From a virus: DNA of 48,676 bases. The position numbers and the translations under genes were made by a program. Below, piece after piece: positions 32,214-48,676 of the stretch. The notes beneath the pieces are model-generated. The model was not told where the DNA came from and ran no database searches. It saw only the letters and a program-made list of their open reading frames with translations. Positions within the stretch are counted from its first letter, which is position 1; each line of letters opens with the position of its first letter. The stretch spans positions 1 through 48,676 of IMG/VR virus record IMGVR_UViG_3300037674_000223; one strand, given 5' to 3'.

Positions 32214-32680
32214 ATGATGAAGTAAAGTGGTCACAAGATCAGATGTTAGAGGTAACTCTAAATCAACCAGATGATTTCTTAAAAGTTAGAGAGACACTTA
32301 CCAGAATAGGCGTAGCAAGTAGAAAAGATAAGACCCTTTTTCAATCTTGCCACATACTACACAAACAAGGAAAGTATTACATAGTACATTTTAAAGAGCT
32401 TTTTGCTTTAGATGGAAAGAAGGCTACTCTAATTAATAATGATATACAACGTAGAAATACAATAGCAGTATTACTACAAGACTGGAATTTAATTAATATA
32501 TTAGACAAAGATACAGCAAAAGAAAACAGAGCACCATTATCACAGATTAAAGTATTACCATTTAAAGAGAAAAAAGAGTGGATATTATCCGCTAAATATA
32601 ACATAGGTAAGAAAATAGTTAAGGAAGAGAAGCCTCTTCCGAAGGAAGAGAAACCTGATAATGCAGATACCAAAGTTTAG
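32210..32680 (+). CDS. regA: Translational repressor RegA
   Basis: mRNA-binding repressor of early phage messages. The core matches T4 closely: LEVTLNQPDDFLKVRETLTRIGVA, DKTLFQSCHILHKQGKYYIVHFKELF (T4: QSCHILQKKGLYYIVHFKEM), RRNTIAVLLQDWNLI and KKEWILSAKYNIGKK. It has 156 residues against 122 because of a 10-residue N-terminal and a Lys/Glu/Pro-rich C-terminal addition. In T4 it also represses gp45 and gp44-62. Confidence 0.95.
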   Translation: MNDEVKWSQDQMLEVTLNQPDDFLKVRETLTRIGVASRKDKTLFQSCHILHKQGKYYIVHFKELFALDGKKATLINNDIQRRNTIAVLLQDWNLINILDKDTAKENRAPLSQIKVLPFKEKKEWILSAKYNIGKKIVKEEKPLPKEEKPDNADTKV

Positions 32681-34127
32681 AGATTATATAACAGAGCAAA
32701 ACCCTGGTCGTAAAGATAAACCGATCACGATTGCTATACTTACTATAAATGATTCAGAGGATCCTCAAAAGGATTCAACTGTTGAACTTATAGAAAAGGC
32801 GTGTAAAAAACAAAAAACTAAATGCGTTATTGTTAATACAACATCTACTATAATCACAGCAAAAGACGAAGATAAGAACACCCTTACTGTCTATAATTAC
32901 GATGGTAAGAATGGTGAACATACCTTTACAGGTAAAGATACCGTTGTTATAACACGAGGTGGTGCAGTGGAGAACGAAGCTGGACTGTCTTTAATCTCTG
33001 CCTTTCAAAACTCACAATCATTTATGTTAAACACAAGACAAGCTATGATGACTTGTGATAACAAATTAACGTCAGCTTTACTATTTGAAAAGTTTGGTAT
33101 AGCTACACCAAAAACAGCATTTATATCTAACGAGAATAATATAAGAACTGGAATAGATATGATTGGTGGTAAGTTTCCACTTATCTTAAAGACATTAACA
33201 GGTACACAAGGTATCGGAGTAATTAAAATTGAAAGTTATGAAGGTCTTGTTGCAACTGTACAAGCAATGTGGAAATTAGAATCTGAACTTTTAATACAAG
33301 AATTTATGCCTACAAAGTTTGATGTAAGAACTTTTTGTTTAGATAACAAAGTTATTGCAAGTACAAAAAGAGTACATAGCTCATATGACTTTAGATCAAA
33401 TACTCATAGAGGTGCCGAGGCACACCCTTATACTTTAAATGATGAAGAACATGAATTAATTTTAAAAGCTTCAAGAGCTTCAAAGGCATATATGGTAGGA
33501 GTTGACCATATAATACACAATAAAAAACCATACATTTTAGAAATCAATGGTAGTCCAGGATCAGGTGCTGATTATCAAGGTTACCAATACAAAGATTATT
33601 ATTCTGATCCAGAACCATCTGGTAGAATAGACGGTGAAAAAATGATGGAATATCTTGTAGATTATATTCAAGATAGAAGTCATTGGGATAGACAATCACT
33701 TATAGAATGTGGTTGGTTAGAAACTGTTGACGTTGCCGATGTAGATAAAGTTAGAGCTAAGTTTGATAGTGGTAACGGATCAAAAGCTTGTGCTTTACAT
33801 GCCGATAAAATTATATCAGATAAGAAAACTGTTAAATGGAAATATAATGGTAAAACTTATGAGAAACCTAAATTTGGTCAAAGTAAAATTTTTAGAGCAA
33901 ATGCTACAAACGAACCTTCTGAAATTAGACCTACAATATTATTAGATTTAACCTTTAATGGTTTTACCTATAAAGATGTAGAGGTAGGATTAGATAGTAG
34001 ACCAAGATCAGGATCAGATTTATTAATTAATAGAGATTTAATGAGACAAATGAATGTTAGTGTTAACCCTAATAGGACGTTTGTATTAAGTAAAAGACTA
34101 AAACCGGTTGACAAAGAACAGAAGTAA
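32661..34127 (+). CDS. RimK-like ATP-grasp ligase fused to RimB-like protease domain
   Basis: A 488-residue fusion. Residues about 20-330 are an ATP-grasp ligase like RimK, the ribosomal protein S6 glutamate ligase: FPLILKTLTGTQGIGV (nucleotide-binding loop), ELLIQEFMPTKFDVRTF, VDHIIHNKKPYILEINGSPG. Residues about 360-480 are a retropepsin-like domain of the RimB/zinc-protease family: AKFDSGNGSKACALHA (Asp369), RPTILLDLTFNG, and LDSRPRSGSDLLINRDLM. The N terminus PKFRDYITE|Q resembles a capsid-targeting peptide with a gp21-type site. It overlaps regA by 20 bases. Confidence 0.8.
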   Translation: MQIPKFRDYITEQNPGRKDKPITIAILTINDSEDPQKDSTVELIEKACKKQKTKCVIVNTTSTIITAKDEDKNTLTVYNYDGKNGEHTFTGKDTVVITRGGAVENEAGLSLISAFQNSQSFMLNTRQAMMTCDNKLTSALLFEKFGIATPKTAFISNENNIRTGIDMIGGKFPLILKTLTGTQGIGVIKIESYEGLVATVQAMWKLESELLIQEFMPTKFDVRTFCLDNKVIASTKRVHSSYDFRSNTHRGAEAHPYTLNDEEHELILKASRASKAYMVGVDHIIHNKKPYILEINGSPGSGADYQGYQYKDYYSDPEPSGRIDGEKMMEYLVDYIQDRSHWDRQSLIECGWLETVDVADVDKVRAKFDSGNGSKACALHADKIISDKKTVKWKYNGKTYEKPKFGQSKIFRANATNEPSEIRPTILLDLTFNGFTYKDVEVGLDSRPRSGSDLLINRDLMRQMNVSVNPNRTFVLSKRLKPVDKEQK

Positions 34128-34131
34128 AACA

Positions 34132-34160
34132 TTGCCTTTTTATAGGTAATGTGTTATATT
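34132..34160 (+). promoter_or_regulatory. Sigma70-like promoter of second Sm-like gene
   Basis: TTGCCT, 17-base spacer ending TGT, TATATT (extended -10). The -35 lies in the 5' arm of a hairpin ACATTGCC / GGTAATGT (34130-34152, one wobble), another terminator-promoter overlap. A 16-base leader with an AATAGGAG ribosome site is predicted. Confidence 0.65.
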
Positions 34161-34182
34161 AAATAATACAATAGGAGATATT

Positions 34183-34488
34183 ATGCAAGAAGTGAAAATA
34201 TTAAGACTATCTACAGGCGAAGATGTAATTGCCAAGGTAGGTGAGAACGACCAAGGCGTGAGTTTAAAAAATCCATTCGTGATTATACCTCAACGAAAAG
34301 GTCCAGGACAACCATTACAATTAATGATGTCTCTGTACAATGCCTTTGGTAAAAAGGAAACTGTCACTATATCAAAAGATAAAATAGTTTTTATGACAGA
34401 ACCTAAAGATGAGATAAGAACATCTTACGAACAAAACACAAGCTCAATTATAACAAAGAATCAAAAGTTAATAACAGAAGCAACGTGA
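34183..34488 (+). CDS. Sm-like small protein (paralogue of 16503-16958)
   Basis: A 101-residue protein with the pattern VKILRLSTGEDVIAKVGEN, SLKNPFVIIPQ, QLMMSLYNAFGKKETVTISKDKIVFM, repeating the order of the protein after uvsW. The NG/TGxDVxAxV strand pair resembles the Sm1 motif. The Sm fold is inference. It is first gene of the ferredoxin-polymerase-folE operon, ending GTGA with ferredoxin. Confidence 0.6.
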   Translation: MQEVKILRLSTGEDVIAKVGENDQGVSLKNPFVIIPQRKGPGQPLQLMMSLYNAFGKKETVTISKDKIVFMTEPKDEIRTSYEQNTSSIITKNQKLITEAT

Positions 34489-34817
34489 TAACAGTAAACT
34501 TTATTAGGACAAACAATGAGAAAGTCCAAGTAAAGGTGCCTGCTGGTTTCACTATAATGGAAGCAGCTAAAGAGGCATGTTTACCGGAAATTCCTGCTGA
34601 CTGCCGTGGTTGTTGTGCTTGTGCTACTTGTCACGTACATGTAAACAATGCCTGGATTGCCAAATTAGATCCCATAGATTATAATAGCAGTGAACAAGAA
34701 TTATTAGAATATGAAAAAGGATATAAAAAAGGTATTAGCAGATTGAGTTGTCAAATATCATTAACAAAAGAACTTGATGGCATAACTTTACATTTACTTG
34801 ATGATAAACTTTTATAA
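34485..34817 (+). CDS. 2Fe-2S ferredoxin (adrenodoxin type)
   Basis: A 110-residue electron carrier. The cluster cysteines Cys40, Cys46, Cys49 and Cys89 are in CRGCCACATC (CX5CX2C) and RLSCQI, the order of adrenodoxin/isc-type ferredoxins. The GTG start at 34485 overlaps the previous stop; the 3' end overlaps the polymerase. Extra cysteines at 43 and 44 are unusual. Possible partners in this window are the radical SAM and 2OG enzymes and the SufE-like protein (inference). Confidence 0.92.
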   Translation: MITVNFIRTNNEKVQVKVPAGFTIMEAAKEACLPEIPADCRGCCACATCHVHVNNAWIAKLDPIDYNSSEQELLEYEKGYKKGISRLSCQISLTKELDGITLHLLDDKLL

Positions 34818-37287
34818 ATCAGTTATAGAACACAAAGGTAAACTTCTAGTTAGAGGTATACATGATGGCAAAGACTATAAAGAAAAGATAGACTTTGGTC
34901 CTACTCTATATTCTATCACACAAAAAAATACAAAATTTAAAACTTTAGATAATCGCAATCTTAATCCTATTAAATTCAAAAACATTAATGACGCAAGAAG
35001 ATTTAGACGAGACGTTGCAACCGATAATTCTCCTATTTACGGTTTAGAACGTTTTCATTATCAATATATTAATGACCAATTTCCTAAAAATATAAAATGG
35101 GATAAAAAGTTTATTAAGATATTCACAATGGATATTGAGACTACGGTCACTGATGGTTTTCCAGATGTAGAAAATCCTATTGAAGAAATTATTTGTATCA
35201 CTGTTAAAAATCAAACTAATAAACAGGTTATAACATGGGGAACTGGTGAATATAAAACAGATAGACTAGATGTTACCTATGTAAAATGTAAAACTGAACA
35301 ACATTTAATAATGGAGTTTATGAAATTTTGGTTAAAGAATCATCCAGATGTTATTACAGGATGGAATACCAAGTTTTTTGATTTACCATATTTAATGAAT
35401 AGGATTAAATTAATTGCAGGCGAAAAGGTTGCAACTAGAATGTCGCCATGGAATTTAATAGAAAAAAATGAAATCATAGTAAGAGGTAGACCTCAAACAA
35501 CATATACTTTAAAGGGTATTGTGATGTTAGATTATCTTGATTGTTATAGATGGTTTATACCAACAAGACAAGAAAGTTATAAACTAGATTTTATTGGTGA
35601 GTTAGAACTAGGTAAAAAGAAACATGTAAATCCTTTTGAAACATTTAAAGATTTTTATGAAAAAGATTTCCAAAAGTTTATTGATTATAACATACAAGAC
35701 GTTGAAATTGTTGACGCCTTGGAAGATAAACTTGGTTTAATTGAACTAGCATTAACTGTTGCATATGAATCTAAAGTAAACTATGATGATATATTTTCAC
35801 AAGTAAGAGTGTGGGATACTTTAATTGCAAATCATTTATTGGCAAAAAATATATGTATACCACCAAGAGAAGAACATATTAAAGATACAAAATATGAAGG
35901 CGCTTATGTAAAAGACCCTAAAGTCGGTCAGCATAAGTGGGTAGTTTCTTTTGACATTAACTCACTATATCCACATATCATTATACAATATAATATTTCG
36001 CCAGAGAAAATAATAGGACAGGATCCTTCAGGTATTTCTGTAAATAAAATGTTAAAACGGAAAATAGATTTATCTTATTTAAAAAAAGAAAATGCTTGTG
36101 TAACACCTAACGGTGCGAAGTTTAAAAATGATAGTCAAGGTTTCTTACCAGAAATGATGGAGACCATGTACAATGAACGTGTTGTTTATAAGAAACGTAT
36201 GTTAACAGCTAAAAAATTATATCAAAAGAATAAGGATCCCGAATTATTAAAAGAAATTTCTAGATGTCACAATATACAATGGGCAAGAAAGATTGCTTTA
36301 AACTCAGCTTATGGTGCAGTTGGTAACCAATACTTTAGATTTTATGATGTAAGACAAGCAAGTGCTATTACTACAACAGGTCAATTCATTATTAGATATA
36401 TTGAGGAAAAAGTAAATGATTATATGAATAAGATTTTAGAATCAGAGTATGATTATATTGTTGCGTCTGATACAGATTCAATTTATGTGACGATGGATAA
36501 GTTAGTTGAAAAGACTTGTCAAGGTAAAACAAATGAACAGATATGTAATTTTATTGATAAGGTTGTTGATAGTAGAGTAGAACCATATATTAAAAAATGT
36601 TTTAATGAACTATCTGAATATTCAAATGCATTTAAAAATTGTATGGTAATGAAACGAGAAATAATTGCCAACAAAGGAATATGGGTTGCAAAGAAAAGAT
36701 ATATGTTAAACGTATTAGATGATGAAGGAGTAAGATTAGCTGATCCTAAATTAAAGATTATGGGTATTGAGGCAGTTAAATCATCAACACCACAAGTTTG
36801 TAGAGGTAAAATTAAAGAGGCAATTCAAATTATTATGAATAAAGATGAACCTACTTTACAAAAATTTATTGCAGACTTTAAAAAAGAATTTTTAGAAATG
36901 GCACCAGAACAAATATCCTTTCCTAGATCATGTAATAATATTGGTAAGTATAGAAACCCAGCAACTATCTTTAGTAAAGGAACACCAATACATGTAAAAG
37001 GTTCTTTAATATACAATCATAAATTAAAAGAAATGAAATTACATAAGAAATATCCTTACATAAAAGAAGGAGATAAGATAAAGTTTCTTAAATTAATACA
37101 GGCAAATCCATTTAGATTTGATGTGATTAGTTATATTACAACGTTACCATTTGAATTTGATTTAAAGAAATATATAGATTACGAAACACAATTTGAAAAA
37201 ACATTCCTTGATCCTATGAGATTTATATTACAATCTATAGGTTGGTCACAGGAAAAGAAAGCAACTTTGGAGGCATTTTTTGGATGA
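34801..37287 (+). CDS. gp43: DNA polymerase gp43 (family B)
   Basis: Replicative polymerase with proofreading, 828 residues (T4: 898). The exonuclease motifs are FTMDIETT (Asp111, Glu113), NTKFFDLPYL and YNIQDVEIV. The polymerase motifs are SFDINSLYPHIIIQYNISPE (motif A), KIALNSAYGAVGN (motif B), and ASDTDSIYV (catalytic Asp557/Asp559). KKRYML and a final LEAFFG clamp-binding-like tail follow. Starts at the ATG at 34801, just before the ferredoxin stop. Confidence 0.97.
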   Translation: MINFYKSVIEHKGKLLVRGIHDGKDYKEKIDFGPTLYSITQKNTKFKTLDNRNLNPIKFKNINDARRFRRDVATDNSPIYGLERFHYQYINDQFPKNIKWDKKFIKIFTMDIETTVTDGFPDVENPIEEIICITVKNQTNKQVITWGTGEYKTDRLDVTYVKCKTEQHLIMEFMKFWLKNHPDVITGWNTKFFDLPYLMNRIKLIAGEKVATRMSPWNLIEKNEIIVRGRPQTTYTLKGIVMLDYLDCYRWFIPTRQESYKLDFIGELELGKKKHVNPFETFKDFYEKDFQKFIDYNIQDVEIVDALEDKLGLIELALTVAYESKVNYDDIFSQVRVWDTLIANHLLAKNICIPPREEHIKDTKYEGAYVKDPKVGQHKWVVSFDINSLYPHIIIQYNISPEKIIGQDPSGISVNKMLKRKIDLSYLKKENACVTPNGAKFKNDSQGFLPEMMETMYNERVVYKKRMLTAKKLYQKNKDPELLKEISRCHNIQWARKIALNSAYGAVGNQYFRFYDVRQASAITTTGQFIIRYIEEKVNDYMNKILESEYDYIVASDTDSIYVTMDKLVEKTCQGKTNEQICNFIDKVVDSRVEPYIKKCFNELSEYSNAFKNCMVMKREIIANKGIWVAKKRYMLNVLDDEGVRLADPKLKIMGIEAVKSSTPQVCRGKIKEAIQIIMNKDEPTLQKFIADFKKEFLEMAPEQISFPRSCNNIGKYRNPATIFSKGTPIHVKGSLIYNHKLKEMKLHKKYPYIKEGDKIKFLKLIQANPFRFDVISYITTLPFEFDLKKYIDYETQFEKTFLDPMRFILQSIGWSQEKKATLEAFFG

Positions 37288-37871
37288 AAAATGGAATAAG
37301 TAAACGATACCAGGTGGTGAGAGACGTTGAAGTTGAAGAAGCTTTTACTAAAATTATTAAATGGATAGGTGAAGACCCTACAAGAGAAGGACTTAAAGCT
37401 ACACCAAAAAGATTAGTGAATGCATATAAAGAATATTTTAAAGGTTACCACGAAGACCCAAAACAAATTTTAGAAAAAGCATTAGCCGATGTACAAGGTT
37501 ATGACGAAATGGTTATACAAAAAAACATTTCAATTCATAGTCATTGCCAACATCATATGGCTCCAATAGTTGGAGTTGTTCATGTTGCATATATTCCAAA
37601 CAAAAGAGTAGTTGGTTTAAGTAAACTTGCTAGAGTAGTAGAGGTATTTTCAAAGAGATTACAAACACAAGAAAAATTAACAATGCAAATTGCAAATACA
37701 ATTATGGATGTTTTACAACCAAAAGGTGTTGCAGTAACCATAAACGCTTCACACCAATGTATGACCATGAGAGGTATTAAAAAAGAAAATGCAACCACTG
37801 TTACAAATTATTTTCTTGGTGTTTTAAAAGATGATTTAAATTATCAAAAAAAATATTTAAAGTTTATATGA
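37284..37871 (+). CDS. folE: GTP cyclohydrolase I
   Basis: Converts GTP to dihydroneopterin triphosphate, the entry step to folate and to 7-deazaguanine bases. The zinc ligands Cys88, His91 (HCQHHMAPIVG) and Cys159 (HQCMTMRG) are all present, with DPTREGLKATPKRL at the N terminus. From the ATG at 37284 (overlapping the polymerase stop, after TTGGAGG) it has 195 residues. No queC, queD or queE is seen here, so whether it feeds folate or DNA modification is open. Confidence 0.95.
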   Translation: MKNGISKRYQVVRDVEVEEAFTKIIKWIGEDPTREGLKATPKRLVNAYKEYFKGYHEDPKQILEKALADVQGYDEMVIQKNISIHSHCQHHMAPIVGVVHVAYIPNKRVVGLSKLARVVEVFSKRLQTQEKLTMQIANTIMDVLQPKGVAVTINASHQCMTMRGIKKENATTVTNYFLGVLKDDLNYQKKYLKFI

Positions 37872-38341
37872 AAAAATTTAAAGATAACATAAGTGATTTT
37901 TTTAAATGGGTTAAAGGTACTGAACTTGTTGAATTAGACAACATAGATGTATCAGAGGATCCTGTAAGACCTGAATTAACATTAGGTTTTAGAATTACAC
38001 ATGGTAGAAAGATATTTGGATTAAAATATAATGATGAGATTGAATCAATTGTTTGTATTGCAATTTGTCCTGAAGTACCACATACTGTTAGAGAAATGGA
38101 TTATATGTCCAGAGTTAAAGACGGCAAAATTGTAATAGCATATACTGTATGGTCAAGAAAAAAAGGTGCAGGTAAAGAGATTATTAACAAATTAGGTGAA
38201 TGGGTTAAAGATAATAAGTATGAAAAATTGGTAACATTATCTCCATTAACAACAATGGCAACACACTTTCATATTAGAAATGGTGCCAAACAAATAGGTA
38301 TCAATGAAGATACTCAAAATTTTGAATACAGATTACAATGA
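37868..38341 (+). CDS. GNAT-like acetyltransferase
   Basis: A 157-residue protein with GNAT traits: a strand-rich N terminus, KIVIAYTVWSRKKGAGKEII as the acetyl-CoA loop region (RxxGxG variant: RKKGAG), a helix INKLGEWVKDN, and LSPLTTMATHFHIRNGAKQIG resembling the typical C-terminal FYxxxGF element. The substrate is unknown. It overlaps folE by 4 bases (ATGA) and the next small gene by 4. Confidence 0.7.
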   Translation: MKKFKDNISDFFKWVKGTELVELDNIDVSEDPVRPELTLGFRITHGRKIFGLKYNDEIESIVCIAICPEVPHTVREMDYMSRVKDGKIVIAYTVWSRKKGAGKEIINKLGEWVKDNKYEKLVTLSPLTTMATHFHIRNGAKQIGINEDTQNFEYRLQ

Positions 38342-38496
38342 TAAAAACATTTGATTTAACATTAATACTATTAATTACCTTGCATTGGTCATTTTCTTTA
38401 GGTATGTTATTAGCAATAAAAACATCTTGGTCTATACCAAGATTTATAATGACAATTTTTATTTTCAGGTATTTAGCTTTGAGTTATGGATATTAA
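38338..38496 (+). CDS. 52-residue membrane protein
   Basis: A short ORF (ATG 38338, TAA 38494) coding for a hydrophobic protein with one or two spans (LTLILLITLHWSFSLGMLLA, then a segment after KTSWSIPRF). It overlaps the GNAT stop (ATGA) and the methyltransferase start by 11 bases, the pattern of a real coupled gene. Function not recognised. Confidence 0.55.
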   Translation: MIKTFDLTLILLITLHWSFSLGMLLAIKTSWSIPRFIMTIFIFRYLALSYGY

Positions 38497-39040
38497 AAAG
38501 ACATATAATATAATATACGCCGATCCTCCGTGGCATTTCCAAAATTATAATAATGAGAGTGCTCAAACTAATCCAGAAAATCATTATCCTACAATGACAA
38601 TGAAAGATATAGAAAATTTACCAGTTGGAGATATTGCAGATAAAGATTGTGTATTGTTTATGTGGTGTACCGATCCATTATTACACAAACAAATACCTAT
38701 AGTTGAGAAGTGGGGTTTTGATTACAAGACCGTAGGCTTTACGTGGGTGAAGACGAACAAGAATCGAATCAAGAACTATTTTTTTAAAGGTCCAGGTTAT
38801 TGGACAAGAGCCAATACAGAGACTTGTATACTTGCAACAAAAGGTAAACCAAAACGAGTTGGTGCCAACGTAGATAGATTGGTTGTGAGTGAACGTAGAG
38901 AACATAGTAGAAAACCAGATAGAATTAGAGACGATATAGTTAAACTATGTGGAGATTTACCACGTATAGAATTATTTGCTAGAACTTCTATGCCTGGTTG
39001 GGACGTATGGGGAAACCAGGTTGACAAATTTACAATTTAA
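38486..39040 (+). CDS. MT-A70 family adenine methyltransferase
   Basis: A 184-residue N6-adenine methyltransferase of the MT-A70 class. The catalytic motif is YADPPWHF (Asp13-Pro-Pro-Trp16), followed by VLFMWCTDPLL, TVGFTWVKTNK, GYWTRANTETCILATKG and a C-terminal RIELFARTSMPGWDVWGNQ, which completes the SAM site. It could protect phage DNA from restriction or mark it for regulation; RNA is a less likely target. No cognate nuclease is adjacent. Confidence 0.93.
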   Translation: MDIKKTYNIIYADPPWHFQNYNNESAQTNPENHYPTMTMKDIENLPVGDIADKDCVLFMWCTDPLLHKQIPIVEKWGFDYKTVGFTWVKTNKNRIKNYFFKGPGYWTRANTETCILATKGKPKRVGANVDRLVVSERREHSRKPDRIRDDIVKLCGDLPRIELFARTSMPGWDVWGNQVDKFTI

Positions 39041-39049
39041 TGATAGAAT
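39021..39049 (+). promoter_or_regulatory. Sigma70-like promoter of second DruA-like gene
   Basis: TTGACA, 17-base spacer ending TGA, TAGAAT (extended -10), then six bases to the ATG at 39056. Same architecture as the first DruA-like gene; predicted leaderless. The -35 lies inside the end of the methyltransferase gene. Confidence 0.72.
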
Positions 39050-39055
39050 AAACAG

Positions 39056-40159
39056 ATGAAAACTAAAAATTTAACAGGTGACCAAGCATTGCATTGTGCT
39101 GGTATATTCAATAATTACTTTGAAAAGTTTAGTCGTATAGATGAATATATGAGAGATCAAAAATTATCTCAAATAGGAAATATACCGGCTGCATTACCTG
39201 GAATGACTTTAGATAGTGATATGTTTTCTAAATTTGATATGTCGCCTAAAGATATGGAATTTGAAATATTGGAACCTGATAATGAAACATATGATACATT
39301 ATTAAATATGACTTCTTCTCATACTAATATGTCAAGTGTGCCTGGTAAAAATTTAAAGATTGCAGTAAAAGAAAAGAATACTAATCAGTGGGTAGGTTTT
39401 ATAAGATGTGGTTCTCCAGTTATAAACATGAAACCAAGAAATGAATTATTAACTCACGTACCAGAATTAGTAAGTTTTAATAAAACATCTATAATGGGAT
39501 TTGTAATAGTACCAACTCAACCTTTTGGTTTTAATTATCTAGGTGGTAAACTATTGGCTGCCATATGTTGTAGTCATACAATAAGAGAAAAATTAAATAA
39601 CAAATATGGTATGAACTTATCATTGTTTGAAACTACAAGTCTATATGGTAATAGTAAATCATCAAGCCAATATGATGGTATGAAACCATATTTAAGATAC
39701 AAAGGATTAACTGATAGTGATTTTATACCTTTGATACATGGTAAACCTTTCCATGATCTTGCAACGTTTGTTGATAGTGCTGTAGGTAAACTTGTTAAAG
39801 ATGACGCCTCTAGTAGAAAGTTAAAACTAACAACGGCCATTATTGGTTTAATAAAGAGAAGTTTAAACAGAAGTGATTTAGAAAGATTTAATACAACTAT
39901 AAATAATGCAAAGAAGCTAACTGAAAGAAAAAGATACTATGTTAGTGATTATGGTATTAAGAACTATCTAGATATAGTAAAAGACAACACAAAGGAAATA
40001 GTTAAAGGTGATAATTGGGATAAATTCCACCTAAATAATATAATAGATTGGTGGAAAAAGAAAGCTGAATCTCGGTATAATAAACTGAAAGAACAAAATA
40101 GATTAAGAACTGAATTAGAAATATGGACACCAGAGGCAAAAATAGATATAATAAGATAA
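39056..40159 (+). CDS. DruA-like (DUF4338) protein 2
   Basis: A 367-residue paralogue of the protein at 21651. The shared core is WVGFIRCGSPVINMKPR, GFVIVPTQPFGFNYLGGKLL, an IREKLNNKYGMNLSLFETTS element, LYGNSKSSSQYDGMKPYLRY, in the same order and spacing. N-terminal and C-terminal parts differ. The aspartate seen in the RDxxIGW segment of paralogue 1 is replaced here by RNELLTH, so the two copies may not be equivalent. Family assignment as for paralogue 1. Confidence 0.62.
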   Translation: MKTKNLTGDQALHCAGIFNNYFEKFSRIDEYMRDQKLSQIGNIPAALPGMTLDSDMFSKFDMSPKDMEFEILEPDNETYDTLLNMTSSHTNMSSVPGKNLKIAVKEKNTNQWVGFIRCGSPVINMKPRNELLTHVPELVSFNKTSIMGFVIVPTQPFGFNYLGGKLLAAICCSHTIREKLNNKYGMNLSLFETTSLYGNSKSSSQYDGMKPYLRYKGLTDSDFIPLIHGKPFHDLATFVDSAVGKLVKDDASSRKLKLTTAIIGLIKRSLNRSDLERFNTTINNAKKLTERKRYYVSDYGIKNYLDIVKDNTKEIVKGDNWDKFHLNNIIDWWKKKAESRYNKLKEQNRLRTELEIWTPEAKIDIIR

Positions 40160-40167
40160 TATCAAGC

Positions 40168-40196
40168 TTGACAATTTTAAGTGGATATGATATAAA
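40168..40196 (+). promoter_or_regulatory. Sigma70-like promoter of uvsX
   Basis: TTGACA, 17-base spacer ending TGA, TATAAA (extended -10). The AAAGGAG ribosome site of uvsX (40194-40200) overlaps the -10, so transcripts starting here (about 40203) would lack it, while read-through transcripts would keep it. Confidence 0.72.
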
Positions 40197-40205
40197 GGAG
40201 ATAAT

Positions 40206-41228: not shown

Positions 41229-41511
41229 AAAACGTTTTGTATTTGCACAAAAGACTGGTGCAGATTACACAGCGATAAAATTACTTGAAGAAAAATACAG
41301 AAATGTAATCTACAAGTATGGTAAAGTTGCGTTTGCAAAAGAAGAAGATAGCAAAGGTCACTTGCCAATGAAGTTTGATTATGATATACTATCCAATCCA
41401 GAATCAAAAGAGATTGAAAATCAAGAGTTTATAGATTATATCGGTGACATATTAATTGAAGTAATGGAAGAACAACTAAACTCTGGCAAGGTAGAATTTA
41501 CAAATGAATAA
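41182..41511 (+). CDS. Conserved-position small protein between uvsX and gp41
   Basis: A 109-residue protein overlapping uvsX by 47 bases (alternative start Met3 at 41188) and gp41 by 8. The N terminus is basic ([13 protein letters not shown]), the middle aromatic ([26 protein letters not shown]) and the C terminus acidic ([13 protein letters not shown]). Cyanophages carry a small ORF at this site too. Function not recognised; a replisome accessory role is possible by position. Confidence 0.6.
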
Positions 41512-42874
41512 TGAACGAATTGAAATAAGTATATTAAGAAACTTGATGTACAATGAAGCGTACATGAGAAAGGCTATACCTTTCTTAAAAGAAATATACT
41601 TTGCAAAACGAGAAGAAAATATTTTGTTTACAGAAATATATGCTTTCGTATCAAAGTATAATAATCTTCCTACCAAAGAAACCATTATGGTTGAAATGGG
41701 TTATAGAAAAGATTTAAATGATGACGAAGTAAGAACAGTAAAAGATTTATTAGAAGTATTAAATCCTGAAGATGTTGACCAGAATTGGCTGATTGATACA
41801 ACAGAAAAGTTTTGTAAAGACAGAGCAGTCCATAATGCAGTATTAGAGGGTATTAAAATATTAGATAAGAAAGATAGCAAGAGATCACCAGAGGCAATAC
41901 CAAGTATCTTGGCTGACGCCTTAGCAGTTTCTTTTGATAATCATATAGGGCATGATTATTTGGCAGATAGTGATGATAGATTTAATTGGTATCATACTAA
42001 AGAGAAAAAATTCCAATTTGATTTAAGTTATTTTAATAGAATTACAAAAGGTGGTGTTCCAAGTAAGACTTTGAACATTGCATTGGCAGGTACAGGTGTA
42101 GGTAAGTCTTTGTTTATGTGTCATTGTGCTAGTAGTTTTTTAGCACAAGGTTTAAATGTATTGTATATCACTTTAGAAATGGCAGAGGAAAGAATTGCAG
42201 AAAGAATAGACGCTAATTTATTAGATGTATCTATGGACGATCTCCATGATATGCCTAAATCTTTATACGAAGATAAACTTAAAAGGTTACAAGATAAAAC
42301 TAAAGGTCAATTTATCATTAAAGAATATCCAACAGCGTCTGCTCATAGTGGACATTTTAGAGCATTATTAAATGAACTTGCTTTAAAGAAATCTTTTAAA
42401 CCACAAGTATTGTTTATAGATTATTTAAACATATGTGCTTCAAGTAGATTTAAAGGTGGTAATATATCATCATACTTTTATATTAAGGCTATCGCTGAAG
42501 AATTAAGAGGTCTAGCAGTAGAGTTTGATTTACCTATTTTCAGTGCTACACAAACAACTAGAACTGGTTATACAAGTACAGATATTGGTTTAGAAGATAC
42601 AGCAGAGTCTTTTGGTTTACCAGCAACGGCTGACTTTATGTTTGCTCTACAATCAAACGAGGAATTAGAACAACTAGGTCAAATGAAAGTAAAACAATTA
42701 AAGAATAGATATAATGACCCAGCAATTAATAGATCATTTATTGTAGGTGTAGATAGATCAAAAATGAAATTATATGATGTACAAAACACAGCTCAAAATA
42801 TAGTAGATAAAGGAACTGAAAGTAAACCAGAAGGAAAAAATCCTTATGATAAGTTTTCAGATTTTAAAGTATGA
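41504..42874 (+). CDS. gp41: Replicative DNA helicase gp41 (DnaB-like)
   Basis: Hexameric 5'-3' helicase of 456 residues (T4: 475). An N-terminal helical domain is followed by the RecA-like motor: FNRITKGGVPSKTLNIALA, Walker A GTGVGKS (196-202), LYITLEMAEERIAERIDANLL, Walker B LFIDYLNICAS, and IFSATQTTR with a downstream arginine finger. The end is low-complexity and overlaps the next gene by 4 bases. Confidence 0.96.
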   Translation: MNNERIEISILRNLMYNEAYMRKAIPFLKEIYFAKREENILFTEIYAFVSKYNNLPTKETIMVEMGYRKDLNDDEVRTVKDLLEVLNPEDVDQNWLIDTTEKFCKDRAVHNAVLEGIKILDKKDSKRSPEAIPSILADALAVSFDNHIGHDYLADSDDRFNWYHTKEKKFQFDLSYFNRITKGGVPSKTLNIALAGTGVGKSLFMCHCASSFLAQGLNVLYITLEMAEERIAERIDANLLDVSMDDLHDMPKSLYEDKLKRLQDKTKGQFIIKEYPTASAHSGHFRALLNELALKKSFKPQVLFIDYLNICASSRFKGGNISSYFYIKAIAEELRGLAVEFDLPIFSATQTTRTGYTSTDIGLEDTAESFGLPATADFMFALQSNEELEQLGQMKVKQLKNRYNDPAINRSFIVGVDRSKMKLYDVQNTAQNIVDKGTESKPEGKNPYDKFSDFKV

Positions 42875-43377
42875 TAAAAACTATTATAACATTTCTATTC
42901 ATTTCAGGTGTTCTTGCTTTGGGGAGAATTATTCCACACCCACCAAACTTTACACCAATTTTAGCAACAGCAATTTTTACTCCATATATAATTAAAGATA
43001 AATGGATTGCAATGTCAATTCCATTATTAGCAATGTTTATTGCAGATTTAGTTATAGGTTTTCATCCATATATGTTATGGGTGTATGGAGCAATAGGTTT
43101 ATCAACTTTAATTAGTAATTGGTCAATGAAGTTTAATAAAAAATATATTCAATTAGGTGTAATGGCAATTATATCTTCTGTACTATTTTTTATAATTACT
43201 AATTTTGCAGTATGGGTTATGTGGGATAATTATCCAAAAACAATTGATGGTTTAGTAATGTGCTATACTATGGCAATACCCTTTTTTCAAAACACATTAT
43301 TATCAACTATGCTATATACAACACTTATAGTTTTAACAGTACAGAAAGGAATGAAATATGCGAACAATTATATTTAG
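42871..43377 (+). CDS. Multi-span membrane protein (DUF6580-like)
   Basis: A 168-residue protein with about five hydrophobic spans. The start, GRIIPHPPNFTPILATAIF, and FIADLVIGFHPYMLWVYGAIGL resemble a family of small bacterial inner-membrane proteins of unknown function (DUF6580-like), found in alphaproteobacteria and others. A host-derived gene inserted after the helicase is plausible. It overlaps gp41 (ATGA) and the following lipoprotein gene. Confidence 0.65.
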   Translation: MIKTIITFLFISGVLALGRIIPHPPNFTPILATAIFTPYIIKDKWIAMSIPLLAMFIADLVIGFHPYMLWVYGAIGLSTLISNWSMKFNKKYIQLGVMAIISSVLFFIITNFAVWVMWDNYPKTIDGLVMCYTMAIPFFQNTLLSTMLYTTLIVLTVQKGMKYANNYI

Positions 43378-43540
43378 TTTATTATTAATAATTGGATTAG
43401 CTGGATGTTCAAGTCAAACATTTAAACCAGATACTACTACATTAAAATATGGTAATACTGGACAAGATGGCGATAGTGTTAATGGAGATTACAATTCAGA
43501 GAATTTTACTATAACACAAACATTTAAGTGGTCACAATAA
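43358..43540 (+). CDS. Small lipoprotein
   Basis: A 60-residue protein with a signal peptide and lipobox LAGC (Cys17), so it should be lipid-anchored after cleavage. The mature part is 44 residues, Asp/Gly/Asn/Thr-rich (GNTGQDGDSVNGDYN). The ATG lies inside the end of the membrane-protein gene, with GAAAGGAA upstream. Phage lipoproteins often serve superinfection exclusion or lysis; that role is inference. Confidence 0.8.
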   Translation: MRTIIFSLLLIIGLAGCSSQTFKPDTTTLKYGNTGQDGDSVNGDYNSENFTITQTFKWSQ

Positions 43541-43554
43541 AAGGAGATATATAA

Positions 43555-43677
43555 ATGAAAAAACTTTGGAATTGGAAAATAAATCTAATACGAAAGTATC
43601 CAGTATGGTGTGCTTATGCTGCCTGGATTGAAGGTCTAATAATAGGATTATTAATTTATCATTTCTTTATTAAATAA
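43555..43677 (+). CDS. 40-residue membrane peptide with EGxIIGL motif
   Basis: A short ORF (ATG 43555, TAA 43675) with an AAAGGAG ribosome site. The first half is basic and aromatic (MKKLWNWKINLIRKYPVWC), the second a membrane span AAWIEGLIIGLLIYHFF. It shares layout and the W-x-E-G-x-I-I-G-L motif with the 38-residue peptide at 13244. Its neighbours are other envelope proteins. Confidence 0.65.
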   Translation: MKKLWNWKINLIRKYPVWCAYAAWIEGLIIGLLIYHFFIK

Positions 43678-43679
43678 TT

Positions 43680-43940
43680 ATGCCAAAAATACAAAAAGTA
43701 AGATTTAGTAAAAGCGATAGACGACCAAGAAAAGTCTATCCTAAATTATCATATACTAAAGGTATGATTAAAAAAGGACGAAAAATACTATGGCAAGTTA
43801 AAGAAATACCTACCAATAGTATAGTCGCAACTTACTTTTTTGAGGAAGACGCAGATAAATTAGTTAAGTTTCAAAACAAAAATAAAGTATGGGAAAAGAA
43901 CGGCGGTATCCCTAAAATGTTCTGGATTAACGAGCATTAA
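43680..43940 (+). CDS. Small basic protein, unrecognised
   Basis: An 86-residue basic protein (FSKSDRRPRKVYPKLSYTKG, then KILWQVKEIPTNSIVATYFFEEDADKL), with a beta-hairpin-like middle reminiscent of small DNA- or RNA-binding phage proteins. It starts 2 bases after the membrane peptide. Family not recognised. Confidence 0.6.
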   Translation: MPKIQKVRFSKSDRRPRKVYPKLSYTKGMIKKGRKILWQVKEIPTNSIVATYFFEEDADKLVKFQNKNKVWEKNGGIPKMFWINEH

Positions 43941-43955
43941 CTCTTGCCTCTTTCT

Positions 43956-43963
43956 TATAAATA
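43956..43963 (+). promoter_or_regulatory. Late promoter TATAAATA at 43.96 kb
   Basis: Exact TATAAATA 17 bases before the ATG at 43981; the leader is very short (about 10 bases, with AAGAAAGAA). It marks the return to late transcription. Confidence 0.75.
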
Positions 43964-43980
43964 TGGTATAAGAAAGAATT

Positions 43981-45402
43981 ATGGCGTACAATTTAGCAAC
44001 GGTTTCAACATTAGAACAACACGTACCATCAAATATTAAAGGTGAGTTTACATCTTTATTAAAGTTAATGGTAGAGGGCGCCTACTATGGCGATGATTCT
44101 CCTGTTACAAAGTCTAGAGTATATACAGTTAAAGTATCTCCAGACAATCTAAAAAAAGTCCTACCTACATTAGAAAAAAAGTATACAGCAAAAGTTAAGC
44201 AAGGCGCCAAGAAGTCTGCTGACTTTATAGTACAAGATTATAAGATTAGATTTATAGAAACAGGTAAGAAATCTGTAAAACAATTAGACGCACAAGTTGT
44301 ACAGAAACAAGAAAGAGCCTCACTTTGGATTATTAAAAGATCATTAAAAGATAAGGTTAGATATAAAAGTGCTGAAGATATATCTAGAGACAAGAAATAT
44401 AAAGAACTAGTGGCGATATATCCAGATGTTATGGAAGATGGTTGGTTAGATAGTTTTTATGCACAACAAAAAAAGATGTTAGAAATTTTTAGAGGTAAAA
44501 CTTTTACAGAATATAATAGAGACGGTGGTTTTATGGATTATATCTCTAATTTAATAAGAGATAAGTTTAAGATTTCAAAAAAAGATAGTTGGAATCCTGC
44601 CGATATTTGGTTAATAAACAATGAGAGTACTGTTAAACGAACTATAAACAAAGCTATGGAAGGAAAGTCAGTATCTATTTCTAAACTAAATGATGTGATG
44701 AAGATATTATATTCAAAACATAAAGTAGCAGGCATATCATTAAAGAAAGTTACCAGTAAAGAGGCAAGATTTGAAGAAGTAAATACTAAAAACGCATTAA
44801 TGAAAGACAGTAAGTTTGTGATGAAGTTATCTAGATCAGTTATGAAAATGACAAACAAATCAGACAAAACATTATCATCAGCTGATATGAGAATAGATAT
44901 TAAATCATCTAACGATGTTTGCGAGTTTCAAATTAGACAAAACGGAAAAGGATTTAATCAGAATTTAAAATTTGATGGTAAATTTAAAGGTGCTGGTGCA
45001 GCTCGTATAGGTAAAGTACCAGTAGATTTATTAGCCAAGTTAATGGCAGAGTATGGTATAGGAAATAATAGAAAATTATTCTTTGTGAATAATCATAATC
45101 TATATCCTAAATCATTAGCAGAATTTGACAAAGTAAAAAATATATATAAGGCAAGATTTGATGTAGTCAATAAACATACAGATACAGGTATACCAGCGTC
45201 AGCATTTATTGGTAATATGTTGAAGTCGTATAACTCTCCAGATTTAAGGAACGGTGTATCTCATACTAAATTAATGGAGTTAGATTTCTTATATGTTATA
45301 TACGCTATACCAACAATAAAAAGAAATAAAATGCTAACGGACATGGTGTTTTTGGCAGAGAAACGAGGGCAACAATTTGGTCCATTTGGCAAGTTGTACT
45401 AG
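43981..45402 (+). CDS. Unrecognised late protein, 473 residues
   Basis: A basic, mixed alpha/beta protein of 473 residues under a late promoter. Visible segments: a Lys-rich N-terminal half (KKVLPTLEKKYTAKVKQGAK), DMRIDIKSSNDVCEFQIRQN, and an ordered C-terminal third (RIGKVPVDLLAKLMAEYGIG, MELDFLYVIYAIP, MVFLAEKRGQQFGPFGKLY). Similar large ORFs occur near the KxDG protein gene in marine T4-like phages. Timing suggests a virion component or an internal head protein. No catalytic motif recognised. Confidence 0.65.
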   Translation: MAYNLATVSTLEQHVPSNIKGEFTSLLKLMVEGAYYGDDSPVTKSRVYTVKVSPDNLKKVLPTLEKKYTAKVKQGAKKSADFIVQDYKIRFIETGKKSVKQLDAQVVQKQERASLWIIKRSLKDKVRYKSAEDISRDKKYKELVAIYPDVMEDGWLDSFYAQQKKMLEIFRGKTFTEYNRDGGFMDYISNLIRDKFKISKKDSWNPADIWLINNESTVKRTINKAMEGKSVSISKLNDVMKILYSKHKVAGISLKKVTSKEARFEEVNTKNALMKDSKFVMKLSRSVMKMTNKSDKTLSSADMRIDIKSSNDVCEFQIRQNGKGFNQNLKFDGKFKGAGAARIGKVPVDLLAKLMAEYGIGNNRKLFFVNNHNLYPKSLAEFDKVKNIYKARFDVVNKHTDTGIPASAFIGNMLKSYNSPDLRNGVSHTKLMELDFLYVIYAIPTIKRNKMLTDMVFLAEKRGQQFGPFGKLY

Positions 45403-45410
45403 TATAAATA
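45403..45410 (+). promoter_or_regulatory. Late promoter TATAAATA at 45.4 kb
   Basis: Exact TATAAATA directly after the preceding stop and 62 bases before the ATG at 45473. The promoter is followed by an AT-rich leader and a GAAGGAAAA ribosome site. Confidence 0.75.
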
Positions 45411-45472
45411 GTGGTAATTAGTGCTTTATTAAATGAGAGAGTGAATTAATTTATGGAAAGAATGAAGGAAAA

Positions 45473-46693
45473 ATGTTTAATTTTAAAGGTTTCATTACAA
45501 AGGAAAAGAATACACACCTAGAACATCTAGAAGATGACATAATCAATAGAGGTTCCAGAGGTGGAGATAATGCTATAAAGTTTCTAAAGTCAGTTAGAAA
45601 CATGTTAGTAGGGTCTTCTGGAGCTAGAGTAAATATGTCTGTCAAGTGGGACGGAGCTCCTGCTATTATATGTGGTATAAATCCAGAAAACGGTAAATTC
45701 TTTGTTGGTACTAAATCAGTATTCAACGTCAAGCCAAAAATCAATTACACACCAGGAGATATTATGAGTAATCATGCAGGTGTTGTAGGCGATAAACTAA
45801 AAGTTTGTTTAAGAGAATTAAAAAAATTAAGAATAAGAGGTATCTACCAAGGAGATTTACTCTTTACAAACGATATAAAATACCAAGTTATAGATGGCGA
45901 GTCTATGATAACTTTCACACCAAATACAATCACATATGCAGTACAAGCAAGTAGCAGTATTGGTAGAAAAATTAGAAGAGCAAGAATGGGAATTGTATTT
46001 CATACAGCTTATCATGGTAAAGATATGAAAAGTTTAAGTGCTGGTTTTGGTACAATAACAGGTAGATCAGGTTCTTCAGCAGTGTGGTTAGCAAGTGCTG
46101 GATATACCGATACATCTGGATCATCAACGTTTACTAAAGGAGAACTATCTAGATTTGATGGTCTAATTAGAATGGCTGAAGGTTCTTTAGGTAAAGCTTC
46201 ATCTATATTAAATGAAATGTCAAGATCAAATGATTCGTTATCAGTAGGTTTTAGATTGAAGGCTTTCTTTAATCATTATATTAGAAACACACAAGGCCAT
46301 ATGGGTAAGGTTAAACAACTCCAAAAAATGTTCAGAGACTATTATGGAAATATTTTAAGAGAAGAAATAGCAACTAGAAAAACCGAAAAAGGTAAACAAA
46401 AATATAGAGATATATTAGATACTAATTTAAAATGGATTGATAGAAATGAATCAGCATTGTACTTTGCTATAGCTTCTCACGTAAGTTTAGGTAATGCAAA
46501 GAACTTTTTAATATCAAAGTTATCACAAATACAAAGTATAGGTCATTTTATTAGAACATCAAATGGTTTTAAAGTAACCAATCCAGAGGGTTATGTTGCA
46601 GTAGATAGATCAGCTGGTGCAGTTAAACTTGTAGATAGATTAGAATTTAGTAGAGCAAACTTTACTATTGCTAAAGATTGGGTAAAAGGATAA
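45473..46693 (+). CDS. Nucleotidyltransferase-like (KxDG) late protein
   Basis: A 406-residue protein. MSVKWDGAPAIICG (Lys58, Asp60, Gly61) matches motif I (KxDG) of ATP-dependent ligases and capping enzymes, with GTKSVFN, GIYQGDLLF (a motif III-like D/E position) and RMGIVFHTAYHG downstream in ligase order. The start MFNFKGFITKE, followed by NTHLEHLEDDI, is typical of a phage family of unknown function (DUF6267-like). Ligase or adenylyltransferase activity is inferred from the motif only. Confidence 0.6.
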   Translation: MFNFKGFITKEKNTHLEHLEDDIINRGSRGGDNAIKFLKSVRNMLVGSSGARVNMSVKWDGAPAIICGINPENGKFFVGTKSVFNVKPKINYTPGDIMSNHAGVVGDKLKVCLRELKKLRIRGIYQGDLLFTNDIKYQVIDGESMITFTPNTITYAVQASSSIGRKIRRARMGIVFHTAYHGKDMKSLSAGFGTITGRSGSSAVWLASAGYTDTSGSSTFTKGELSRFDGLIRMAEGSLGKASSILNEMSRSNDSLSVGFRLKAFFNHYIRNTQGHMGKVKQLQKMFRDYYGNILREEIATRKTEKGKQKYRDILDTNLKWIDRNESALYFAIASHVSLGNAKNFLISKLSQIQSIGHFIRTSNGFKVTNPEGYVAVDRSAGAVKLVDRLEFSRANFTIAKDWVKG

Positions 46694-46830
46694 TGAATAA
46701 TATTTACAGTGCTACGCATGATTTTTTATCAGCACCAATAGAAAAAGAAAAGAAAAGAAAAAAGAAAAGTAATAAAGCATATGCTTATTTTCTTCTTAAA
46801 AAAAAGAGAATGCAAAGAAAAAGAAAATGA
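46693..46830 (+). CDS. 45-residue very basic peptide
   Basis: A short ORF (ATG 46693, TGA 46828) overlapping the preceding stop (TAATG) and the adenylate kinase ATG (ATGA). Of 45 residues roughly two fifths are Lys or Arg (KEKKRKKKSNK, KKKRMQRKRK). Overlap at both ends suggests a coupled real gene. A DNA- or RNA-condensing role is a guess from charge. Confidence 0.5.
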   Translation: MNNIYSATHDFLSAPIEKEKKRKKKSNKAYAYFLLKKKRMQRKRK

Positions 46831-47411
46831 AATCATTTATAGAGTACATAAACAAATTTTTAGAAGAAGCTAGACAACCAAAAATTATTTTAATTGGTGG
46901 TCCAGGCAGTGGTAAATCTACATATGCAAAATTTATAACAAAAGAATTTAATATACCACACATATACCCAGGTGAACTATTGAGAAAAGAGAAAGAAAAA
47001 GGTGGTGAAATGGCCAAAAGATTATCTAATTTAGGTAAAGGTCACTTTGCTCCAAATGATATAGTTTTAAAACTTGTATTTGACGCCGTTGACAAAACAG
47101 ATGGTTTTGTATTTGATGGCTTTCCAAGATATATGCAACAAGTTAGAGACATGGAAAAGAAAGGTATTGATATAGATAATGTGGTATTTTTAGATGTAAG
47201 TCAGGAAGAAGTTATCAAAAGACTAACTGCTAGAGGTAGAGTTGATGATAAACCTGATGTTATTAAAGACAGAATTGCTTTATATAAAAAAGAAACAGGT
47301 CCTGTGGTTGACTACTACAGAGATAAACCTGGTTTCGTATCTATTAAAGCAGAAGGTGATACGCCGGAGAATATAGCTAAAGAGATAATAAATAAGGTTA
47401 AAAACAAATAA
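46827..47411 (+). CDS. adk: Adenylate kinase with N-terminal capsid-targeting-like peptide
   Basis: Interconverts AMP, ADP and ATP. The P-loop GGPGSGKST (24-32), the AMP site IYPGELLRKE, FDGFPRYMQQ and a short lid with RLTARGRVDDKPDVIKDRI are all present; 194 residues is the usual size once the start is removed. The first 14 residues (MKSFIEYINKFLEE) are extra and resemble the capsid-targeting sequences of T4 internal head proteins (MKTYQEFIAEA type), ending in an L-x-E site. Confidence 0.92.
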   Translation: MKSFIEYINKFLEEARQPKIILIGGPGSGKSTYAKFITKEFNIPHIYPGELLRKEKEKGGEMAKRLSNLGKGHFAPNDIVLKLVFDAVDKTDGFVFDGFPRYMQQVRDMEKKGIDIDNVVFLDVSQEEVIKRLTARGRVDDKPDVIKDRIALYKKETGPVVDYYRDKPGFVSIKAEGDTPENIAKEIINKVKNK

Positions 47412-47427
47412 TGAAAAGGAGAATAGA

Positions 47428-47667
47428 ATGAGTGTTAAAAATGAAATAAAATTTCCAACACCAGAACCAGAAGATAATTCAATCAATGGTTTTAATACAA
47501 CAGTTGATGTATTAGAGGCGGTGAAAGAAAATATTGCTAATGATAATAAAGATGTAGCGATTGATATGATTAATCAATTACTTAATGCTGGAAGTGGTGC
47601 ATTTGGACCACAAGCACCTGAAGTTGATGAAACTAATACAGACATTAGACAAGAAGAAATAAATTAA
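47428..47667 (+). CDS. Small acidic protein, unrecognised
   Basis: A 79-residue acidic protein with an AAAGGAG ribosome site. Pro/Glu-rich start (KFPTPEPEDN), a helical middle (VDVLEAVKENIANDNKDVAIDMINQLL) and a loose acidic tail. It is followed closely by the SufE-like gene. Family not recognised. Confidence 0.6.
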   Translation: MSVKNEIKFPTPEPEDNSINGFNTTVDVLEAVKENIANDNKDVAIDMINQLLNAGSGAFGPQAPEVDETNTDIRQEEIN

Positions 47668-47676
47668 GGAGATATA

Positions 47677-48327
47677 ATGTATATAAAAGGTGGTATGAAA
47701 AAACTATCCAAAGCAATTGCAAAGTCAGCTAAAGAAAATATGGATGCTGAAATAAAAATTGCAGAACAAGAGGAGAAAGAAATGATGGAAGCAGAGAAGA
47801 CGCCTGTATTTGGCGACAGTCAAATGGCCGGCATGTCAATCCAGGAAAAGCTTGGTACATGGAGCCATAATTTTTCTCAATTGGATGACAAAGAAAAGTT
47901 TTACTATATGCTAGAACAAGGACGTGGCATAGTTAAACTTGATGACGATAAAAGAATAAACGGTTATAGAATATATGGTTGTGTAAGCCAAGTATGGTTA
48001 TTACCACAGCTTAAAGGTGAAAACATGGAATTTGAAGTAGACGCTGATTCTCACGAGGCAAGAGGAGCAATGTATATACTTCAATCAATTTTATCAGGTC
48101 ACCCACCAAAAGAAATTTTGGAAGTGGACGATAATCAAATTGCTGGTATAGGTTTCATAGATGTATTAACTCCAAAAAGACGAGACGGTCTTTTCGCAGT
48201 TGTTAATGCTATAAGAGACTATGCTAAAGACATGAACGAAATAATGGTAGAGCAAACTCAAGCTGAACAAGTGGTAGATGAAAAACCGTCAAAAAAATAT
48301 AAGAAGTATACAAAAGCGGGGGAGTAA
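47677..48327 (+). CDS. SufE-like sulfur acceptor protein
   Basis: SufE takes sulfur from the cysteine desulfurase SufS and raises its activity in Fe-S cluster assembly. Residues about 55-205 carry the fold: MSIQEKLGTWSHNFSQLDDKEKFYYMLE, then RIYGCVSQVWLLPQL (acceptor Cys102 in GCxSQVW), FEVDADSHEARGAMYILQSIL and FIDVLTPKRRDGLFAVVNAI (typical LTPxRRxG). The N-terminal 55 residues (coiled, charged) and the Lys-rich C-terminal tail are extra. AAGGAGATATA ribosome site. Confidence 0.85.
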   Translation: MYIKGGMKKLSKAIAKSAKENMDAEIKIAEQEEKEMMEAEKTPVFGDSQMAGMSIQEKLGTWSHNFSQLDDKEKFYYMLEQGRGIVKLDDDKRINGYRIYGCVSQVWLLPQLKGENMEFEVDADSHEARGAMYILQSILSGHPPKEILEVDDNQIAGIGFIDVLTPKRRDGLFAVVNAIRDYAKDMNEIMVEQTQAEQVVDEKPSKKYKKYTKAGE

Positions 48328-48676
48328 TGAAAAATTTACAAGAAGTAAAAAGCTTTCTAAATGAAGGTGTTTATGACAGAGGCATTTTTAAAGCTTTCTT
48401 CTTAGCAGGTGGACCTGGTTCAGGTAAATCATTTGTTACACAAGCCGCTTTTGCTGGCATAGGATTAAAAATAGTAAACTCGGATACAATCTTTGAAAGA
48501 GGATTATTAAAAGCAAACCTATCTTTAAAAATGCCAGACGAAGAAGAATATTTTAGAAACGTAGTACGAGACAGAGCAAAACTTACAGCAAGTACTCAAT
48601 TAGATACCTATGTAAAAGGAAGATTAGGTCTTGTTATTGACGCAACTGGTCGTGATAAATCTATAATCTCTAGACA
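48327..48676 (+). CDS. P-loop kinase (3'-truncated) with capsid-targeting-like start
   Basis: The first 116 residues of a P-loop kinase, cut by the window end. Walker A LAGGPGSGKS (about 27-35) is followed by IVNSDTIFERG and LGLVIDATGRDKS, as in zeta-toxin-like or polynucleotide-kinase-like phage enzymes. The first 13 residues (MKNLQEVKSFLNE) precede the kinase fold and end in an L-x-E site, as in adenylate kinase. TAATG overlap with the SufE-like gene and a GGGGGAG ribosome site. Confidence 0.8.
   Translation, partial: MKNLQEVKSFLNEGVYDRGIFKAFFLAGGPGSGKSFVTQAAFAGIGLKIVNSDTIFERGLLKANLSLKMPDEEEYFRNVVRDRAKLTASTQLDTYVKGRLGLVIDATGRDKSIISR

Follow-up and report, generated by a model that had tools for sequence, protein, structure and literature searches.

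Three enzymes encoded in the virus record IMGVR_UViG_3300037674_000223 begin with a short peptide that stands ahead of the enzyme fold, and the question is what these leaders are for. The window, i.e. the whole analysed stretch of DNA, is a 48,676-base record of a T4-like myophage. A sequence-only reading had likened the leaders of a RimK-RimB fusion, an adenylate kinase and a P-loop kinase to the peptides that T4 internal head proteins carry and that the prohead protease gp21 removes. All three leaders were found where that reading had placed them (32661, 46827 and 48327). We consider it very probable that they are T4-type capsid targeting sequences (CTS), which would bind the core, be cut by gp21 after their glutamate and so allow the enzymes to leave the head with the DNA.

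The leaders, the proteins behind them, the head genes and the promoter motifs located below are on the plus strand. The RimK-RimB leader MQIPKFRDYITE|Q (32661..32696, predicted gp21 cut after E12) precedes a RimK ATP-grasp ligase with a putative RimB-like C-terminal domain (32697..34127). The ligase was identified by PF08443 (E=6.8e-38) and by RimK structures matching at E of about 1e-28 to 1e-30, while the RimB-like domain is suggested by a PF05618 match below cut-off (E=0.0017, 18.7 bits vs a Pfam cut-off of 27). The adenylate kinase leader MKSFIEYINKFLEE|A (46827..46868, predicted cut after E14) is followed by the kinase domain (46869..47411; PF00406, E=3.7e-35). The P-loop kinase leader MKNLQEVKSFLNE|G (48327..48365, predicted cut after E13) is followed by an AAA_33-like kinase (48366..48676; PF13671, phrog_12810), which is truncated by the window end. 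The leaders thus end in YITE|Q, FLEE|A and FLNE|G. Their start codons are effectively forced, because the next methionine of each open reading frame falls inside the enzyme domain.

The position of the leaders before the enzyme fold was confirmed. PDB adenylate kinases start (residue 2–3) where the window protein is already at residue 19–20, and the AlphaFold2 model of the latter has a separate leader helix (4–15) followed by a strand (19–24), with a mean predicted local distance difference test (pLDDT) score of 87.6. For RimK, the placement was taken from Pfam and PDB domain positions, as the AlphaFold model was too poor (pLDDT 50). The sequence-only reading had also described all three peptides as amphipathic. 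The peptides and their hydrophobic-x-Glu ends were present, while amphipathicity was clear for the adenylate kinase only and was dropped as a general criterion.

A leader motif, [FYLIVM]xx[FY][ILVMF]xE within residues 2–26, was matched by exactly 3 of the 56 plus-strand open reading frames, and these were the three enzymes. The expected number was 0.46 by shuffling (P=0.0085) and 0.36 from internal windows (P=0.006). Judged on the window alone, this excess is moderate; conservation in relatives puts the leaders far beyond chance.

The sequence-only reading had proposed aligning homologues and looking for a gp21 site at the leader ends. The leaders proved to be conserved, and the P1 glutamate was kept in all three families; a lack of conservation, which that reading had named as a refutation, was not observed. 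For RimK, the leader motif was found in 43 of 43 distinct homologues, and M1, F6 and E12 were invariant in 23 sequences. These include phage Mosig, whose RimK is 29% identical overall and starts with MQMQVQPFKNYLEE|A. In Melnitz, translation beginning at TTG gives the leader LTQKFSQFITE|E. RimK homologues of two other phage lineages retain the leader. Standalone adenylate kinases ended their leaders in [hydrophobic]xE in 36 of 36 distinct N-termini (the single listed exception is a contig end), with a variable distance of 10–18 residues between the glutamate and the P-loop. In the kinase family, the sites read [LI]xE|G: P1 was glutamate and P3 leucine or isoleucine in all 66 homologues, P2 took eight different residues and the leader length ranged from 8 to 22. 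Here, and in this family alone, the glutamate directly adjoins a conserved GxYD stretch, and part of the conservation could therefore reflect the fold. The tag was kept across relatives while sequence, leader length and neighbouring genes drifted.

Of 536 proteins belonging to 19 other families at these loci (the total is our own addition over the families), none matched the same regular expression. These families included replication proteins; RegA (0/37) and DNA polymerase (0/49) are both encoded near RimK. Single-linkage clustering merged the adenylate kinases and P-loop kinases, and their rates were taken from the separate family counts. In addition, viral contigs were scanned with a DNA pattern encoding MK[ST/R]Fxx[FY][ILF]xEA. 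It occurred in at least 120 stretches, and among the matches listed and read, 83 of 83 were starts of open reading frames and none was internal. Control patterns with aspartate or lysine in place of glutamate gave 19 and 10 matches in the whole collection, some of them internal or too short. As the pattern was narrowed, leaders of the MK[ST/R]F...EA type are over-represented in this sample. Cytidylyltransferases stood behind the tag in 18 of 68 cases by Pfam, and the others included DUF6267 proteins, adenylate kinases, other P-loop kinases, HAD and GNAT proteins and unknown families. Two consecutive small genes (L328:3736-4149 and 4149-4529) both start with a leader (MKTFKEFILEAQ and MKTFSQFIEEAK).

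In T4, gp21 cuts after [LI]xE, and residues 4 and 7 of the CTS serve targeting while residues 8 and 10 serve processing (PMC9026906). In the T4 record, both IpII and IpIII start with MKTYQEFIAE|A. The window leaders close with ITE, LEE and LNE. The aromatic residues are F4 and Y7 in the adenylate kinase and F6 and Y9, i.e. two residues later, in RimK; the P-loop kinase, with L4, V7 and then F10, is a looser fit. The machinery that such a signal needs is encoded in the window: a gp21-type prohead protease (Peptidase_S77, 8271..8915; PF03420, E=4.2e-34), a gp22-type scaffold (T4_CASP, 8992..10167; PF25623, E=4.1e-70), with which the tag would be expected to associate in the core, and the major capsid protein gp23 (10191..11525; PF07068). 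The maturation region of gp23 in 80 relatives reads [FY][LMI]xE|[AST], e.g. FLNE|A, FLSE|A, FMTE|A or YLAE|A, and is of the same P4–P1 type as the enzyme leaders. By analogy with T4 and from the site of the relatives, gp23 of the window is probably cut at FMTE|A after E52 (codon 10344-10346). The leaders share every T4 CTS feature that can be tested on sequence, and the likeness to gp21-processed leaders held for the residue types that T4 genetics assigns to targeting and processing.

Published mass spectrometry also places tagged enzymes of related cyanophages in virions. All 219 genes of the T4-like cyanophage S-CREM2 were scored against its virion list (Table 3 of PMC10665884). Among the 28 non-structural or unknown proteins that were detected, 5 had the motif in T4 register, compared with 1 of 167 undetected proteins and 0 of 24 structural proteins (Fisher P=2.4e-4). 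With the window motif, the numbers were 6 of 28 vs 3 of 167 (P=3.3e-4). Tagged proteins detected included the SAM hydrolase (MKDFDSFLEE|F), a Cas9-like protein (...RFASFMAE|A), gp13 (MKDLHSFLTE|Q), the APH kinase (MKRFDAFLTE|E), gp136 (MQTFSMFFSE|D) and a cytidylyltransferase (MKNFSSFLTE|A). The S-SZBM1 cytidylyltransferase gp140 (MRFRQFIIE|A) was detected in virions (PMC9146016). Its DUF6267 neighbour gp141, which starts with MAKNTHLEH and has no leader, is absent from the text and the detected-protein table of the same paper. In S-SCSM1, virions were found to contain the NMNAT (MKSFLQFLKE|A; PMC9602691), and the PKN8 kinase of S-CRM01, reported in virions, starts with MISFDQFLSE|K. Runs of consecutive genes with typical or variant leaders were seen in S-CREM2 (gp12-gp15, L306) and S-CRM01 (g127-g131, L542), encoding a kinase, a Cas9-like protein, a cytidylyltransferase and small proteins. 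The 70-residue virion protein gp93 of S-SCSM1 (L302, record 91626-91835) has a C terminus, KKKRTFKEFLEYIE, that resembles a capsid-targeting leader.

In-frame fusions of adenylate kinase to the P-loop kinase occur at 22 loci, with 3 distinct N-termini and 9 distinct junctions among them. The fused adenylate kinase begins with MNIILIGG and has no leader; the sole tag is at the junction, which reads [FY][IL]xE|G in 22 of 22 cases (e.g. KGKTLNEFRQYLNE|GVYDPGIFK). A targeting signal would be expected to occur just once on each polypeptide. In Agrobacterium phage Atu_ph07 (L541), the kinase domain lies within a 779-residue protein and retains, where it borders the rest of the protein, a VTE|G that may be an internal protease site.

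A weaker leader had been proposed for the protein with a KxDG motif (VKWDG) at 45473..46693, which we identified as DUF6267 (PF19782, E=3.4e-117). Its peptide MFNFKGFITKEK (45473..45505) is half a leader: the aromatics at 4 and 7 are kept, the glutamate is one residue out of register and P3 is a threonine, so that a gp21 site is missing. Among 37 distinct DUF6267 leaders, 34 had both aromatics and 3 had [hydrophobic]xE, and a full leader was rejected for the clade of the window. Full leaders occur in Melnitz (LINFSKYITE|D) and L113 (MYSFKQYLNE|A), while the S-SZBM1 and S-CRM01 relatives are leaderless. As aspartate at position 10 of the T4 CTS stops processing and leaves targeting intact (PMC9026906), the half-leader could possibly target without being cleaved.

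In the window, the genes from gp17 to gp23 are followed by replication genes and then by the cargo cluster (43981-48676). The T4-type late promoter motif TATAAATA occurs nine times, always on the plus strand, and seven occurrences lie in non-coding DNA no more than 100 bases ahead of the start of a gene (8236, 8919, 11687, 27254, 27832, 43956 and 45403; P=1e-8). The genes concerned include gp21, gp22, the gene at 43981 and DUF6267. With the motif ahead of the cluster (43956..43963) and ahead of DUF6267 (45403..45410), the cargo cluster looks late, as head cargo must be. Its first protein (43981-45402, phrog_1462) is distantly similar (27% over 219 residues, E=1e-5) to S-SCSM1 gp90, a virion protein detected by mass spectrometry, and has a conserved LMxE|G in its N-terminal part that could be another cut site. 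The cluster also encodes a SufE-like protein of Fe-S metabolism (47677-48327) with an N-terminal extension and no obvious leader.

The closest named relatives of the virus are the Pelagibacter phages Mosig EXVC030M and HTVC008M and the methylophage Melnitz. We infer the host from these relatives, which include phages of SAR11, the most abundant ocean bacteria.

From the computed leader, its placement before the fold, its position-specific conservation, gp21, gp22 and gp23 in the same virus, the gp23-site match and the association with virion-detected proteins, we infer that this phage packages, cleaves and injects the enzymes and that they have a task in the cell. A newly made enzyme would bind the core of the assembling prohead via the aromatic face of its leader and be enclosed by the gp23 shell. 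The gp21 protease would then cut after the glutamate of [LIM]xE and free the mature enzyme inside the head, from which it would exit with the DNA at infection. The virus thus probably carries ready-made enzymes and injects them. They would act before any phage gene is expressed: RimK-RimB, a likely modifier of ribosomes, on the ribosomes, and the adenylate kinase and the kinase on nucleotides or nucleic-acid ends.

Several points weigh against this reading. P3 of the adenylate kinase leader is often F instead of L or I, and RimK sits in the replication block without a TATAAATA of its own. The 22 fusions probably form one clade, are not independent and count as nearer 1 observation than 22. The leader proteins gp175 of S-CREM2 and gp30 of S-SCSM1 were not detected in virions, and published tryptic data show no N termini after the leader glutamate. 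Virion data were found neither for this phage nor for any phage of SAR11. Authors of the cyanophage virion papers also allow for contamination of their CsCl preparations.

The explanation that survives best beside injection accepts core binding and cleavage, and takes the enzymes to be internal parts of the head that remain in it once it has emptied, or that act in assembly, and not injected effectors. All support for targeting and cleavage is neutral on injection, and some T4 core fragments do remain in the head (PMC9026906). Yet T4 CTS fusions and internal proteins are ejected (same paper), and the cargo proteins are catalysts (ligase, kinases, nucleotidyltransferases, SAM hydrolase) with no evident role in assembly. 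We regard this explanation as unlikely. Less credit still is due to the idea that the leader is an amphipathic helix docking to another intracellular phage complex, e.g. for replication, and resembles a CTS by convergence. The adenylate kinase leader is amphipathic (hydrophobic moment 0.65 vs 0.26 shuffled) and RimK adjoins replication genes, but a docking helix leaves unexplained why glutamate is required (aspartate and lysine controls), the likeness to gp23 sites, the link between leader and virion detection and the 19 families without a leader, replication proteins included. It is about as improbable, or slightly more so, that contamination brought the enzymes into the cyanophage lists and that the leader has nothing to do with packaging. 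The concern about CsCl preparations and the many replication enzymes in YerA41 particles speak for contamination; the S-CREM2 list, however, lacks NrdA/B, gp32, UvsW, DNA polymerase and PhoH and yet holds leader-bearing enzymes. Chance or a start-codon artefact, to which the modest excess in the window (3 vs 0.4 expected) might point, is refuted by the forced starts and the complete conservation in large families and has next to no probability left.

Beyond the window, we somewhat favour the broader view that marine T4-like phages share a capsid-import code that can be read from sequence and by which each virus delivers a changing enzyme kit into the cell before transcription. The tag would also work between two enzymes, as in a polyprotein separated by the protease, and could be reduced to its targeting half. 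The kit would comprise a ribosome-modifying ligase, adenylate kinase, other P-loop kinases, NMNAT, the KxDG nucleotidyltransferase, SAM hydrolase, HAD and GNAT proteins. The proteins that accompany the DNA into the cell are known for very few phages, and least of all for the uncultivated phages that prevail in the ocean. With a sequence tag that predicts virion enzymes, compared here with published mass-spectrometry lists, injected effectors could be listed from metagenomes. Such a tag would account for the recurrent NMNAT-like enzymes and kinases in cyanophage virions, and it points to a ribosome-modifying enzyme as a likely effector at time zero.

The kind of tag is known; the novelty lies in the enzyme cargo, in how widely that cargo occurs among marine phages and in a tag placed between two enzymes. 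No paper linking CTS leaders to cyanophage or pelagiphage enzymes was found in the literature searched (subscription papers were outside reach). The NMNAT/cytidylyltransferase, APH/PKN8 kinase and SAM hydrolase of S-CREM2, S-SCSM1, S-SZBM1 and S-CRM01 share this leader and have been reported from virions; they differ from the window in their cyanobacterial hosts and in the enzymes concerned, and the virion papers offer no import or packaging mechanism for them. The RimK homologue of YerA41 (YerA41_066) was detected in phage particles (g112) and differs from that of the window in having no leader. It was not counted as virion proof, being leaderless and from a noisy particle list with many replication enzymes. 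T4 IpII and IpIII resemble the window leaders in length class, aromatics at 4 and 7, the hydrophobic residue at 8 and glutamate at 10, and gp21, gp22 and gp23 are present. In contrast to their 10-residue CTS, the leaders here span 8–22 residues, the cargo consists of metabolic or modifying enzymes and, in one homologue class, the tag lies between two enzymes. T4 Alt, a packaged and injected ADP-ribosyltransferase, is likewise an enzyme with a gp21-processed propeptide; the window differs in its enzyme families and in having several tagged enzymes in one virus. Ejection proteins of SPN3US and phiKZ have a propeptide that is processed after glutamate by the prohead protease, and the cargo is ejected, as proposed for the window; these are giant phages with a much diverged protease, and the details of their propeptides differ from the leaders described here.

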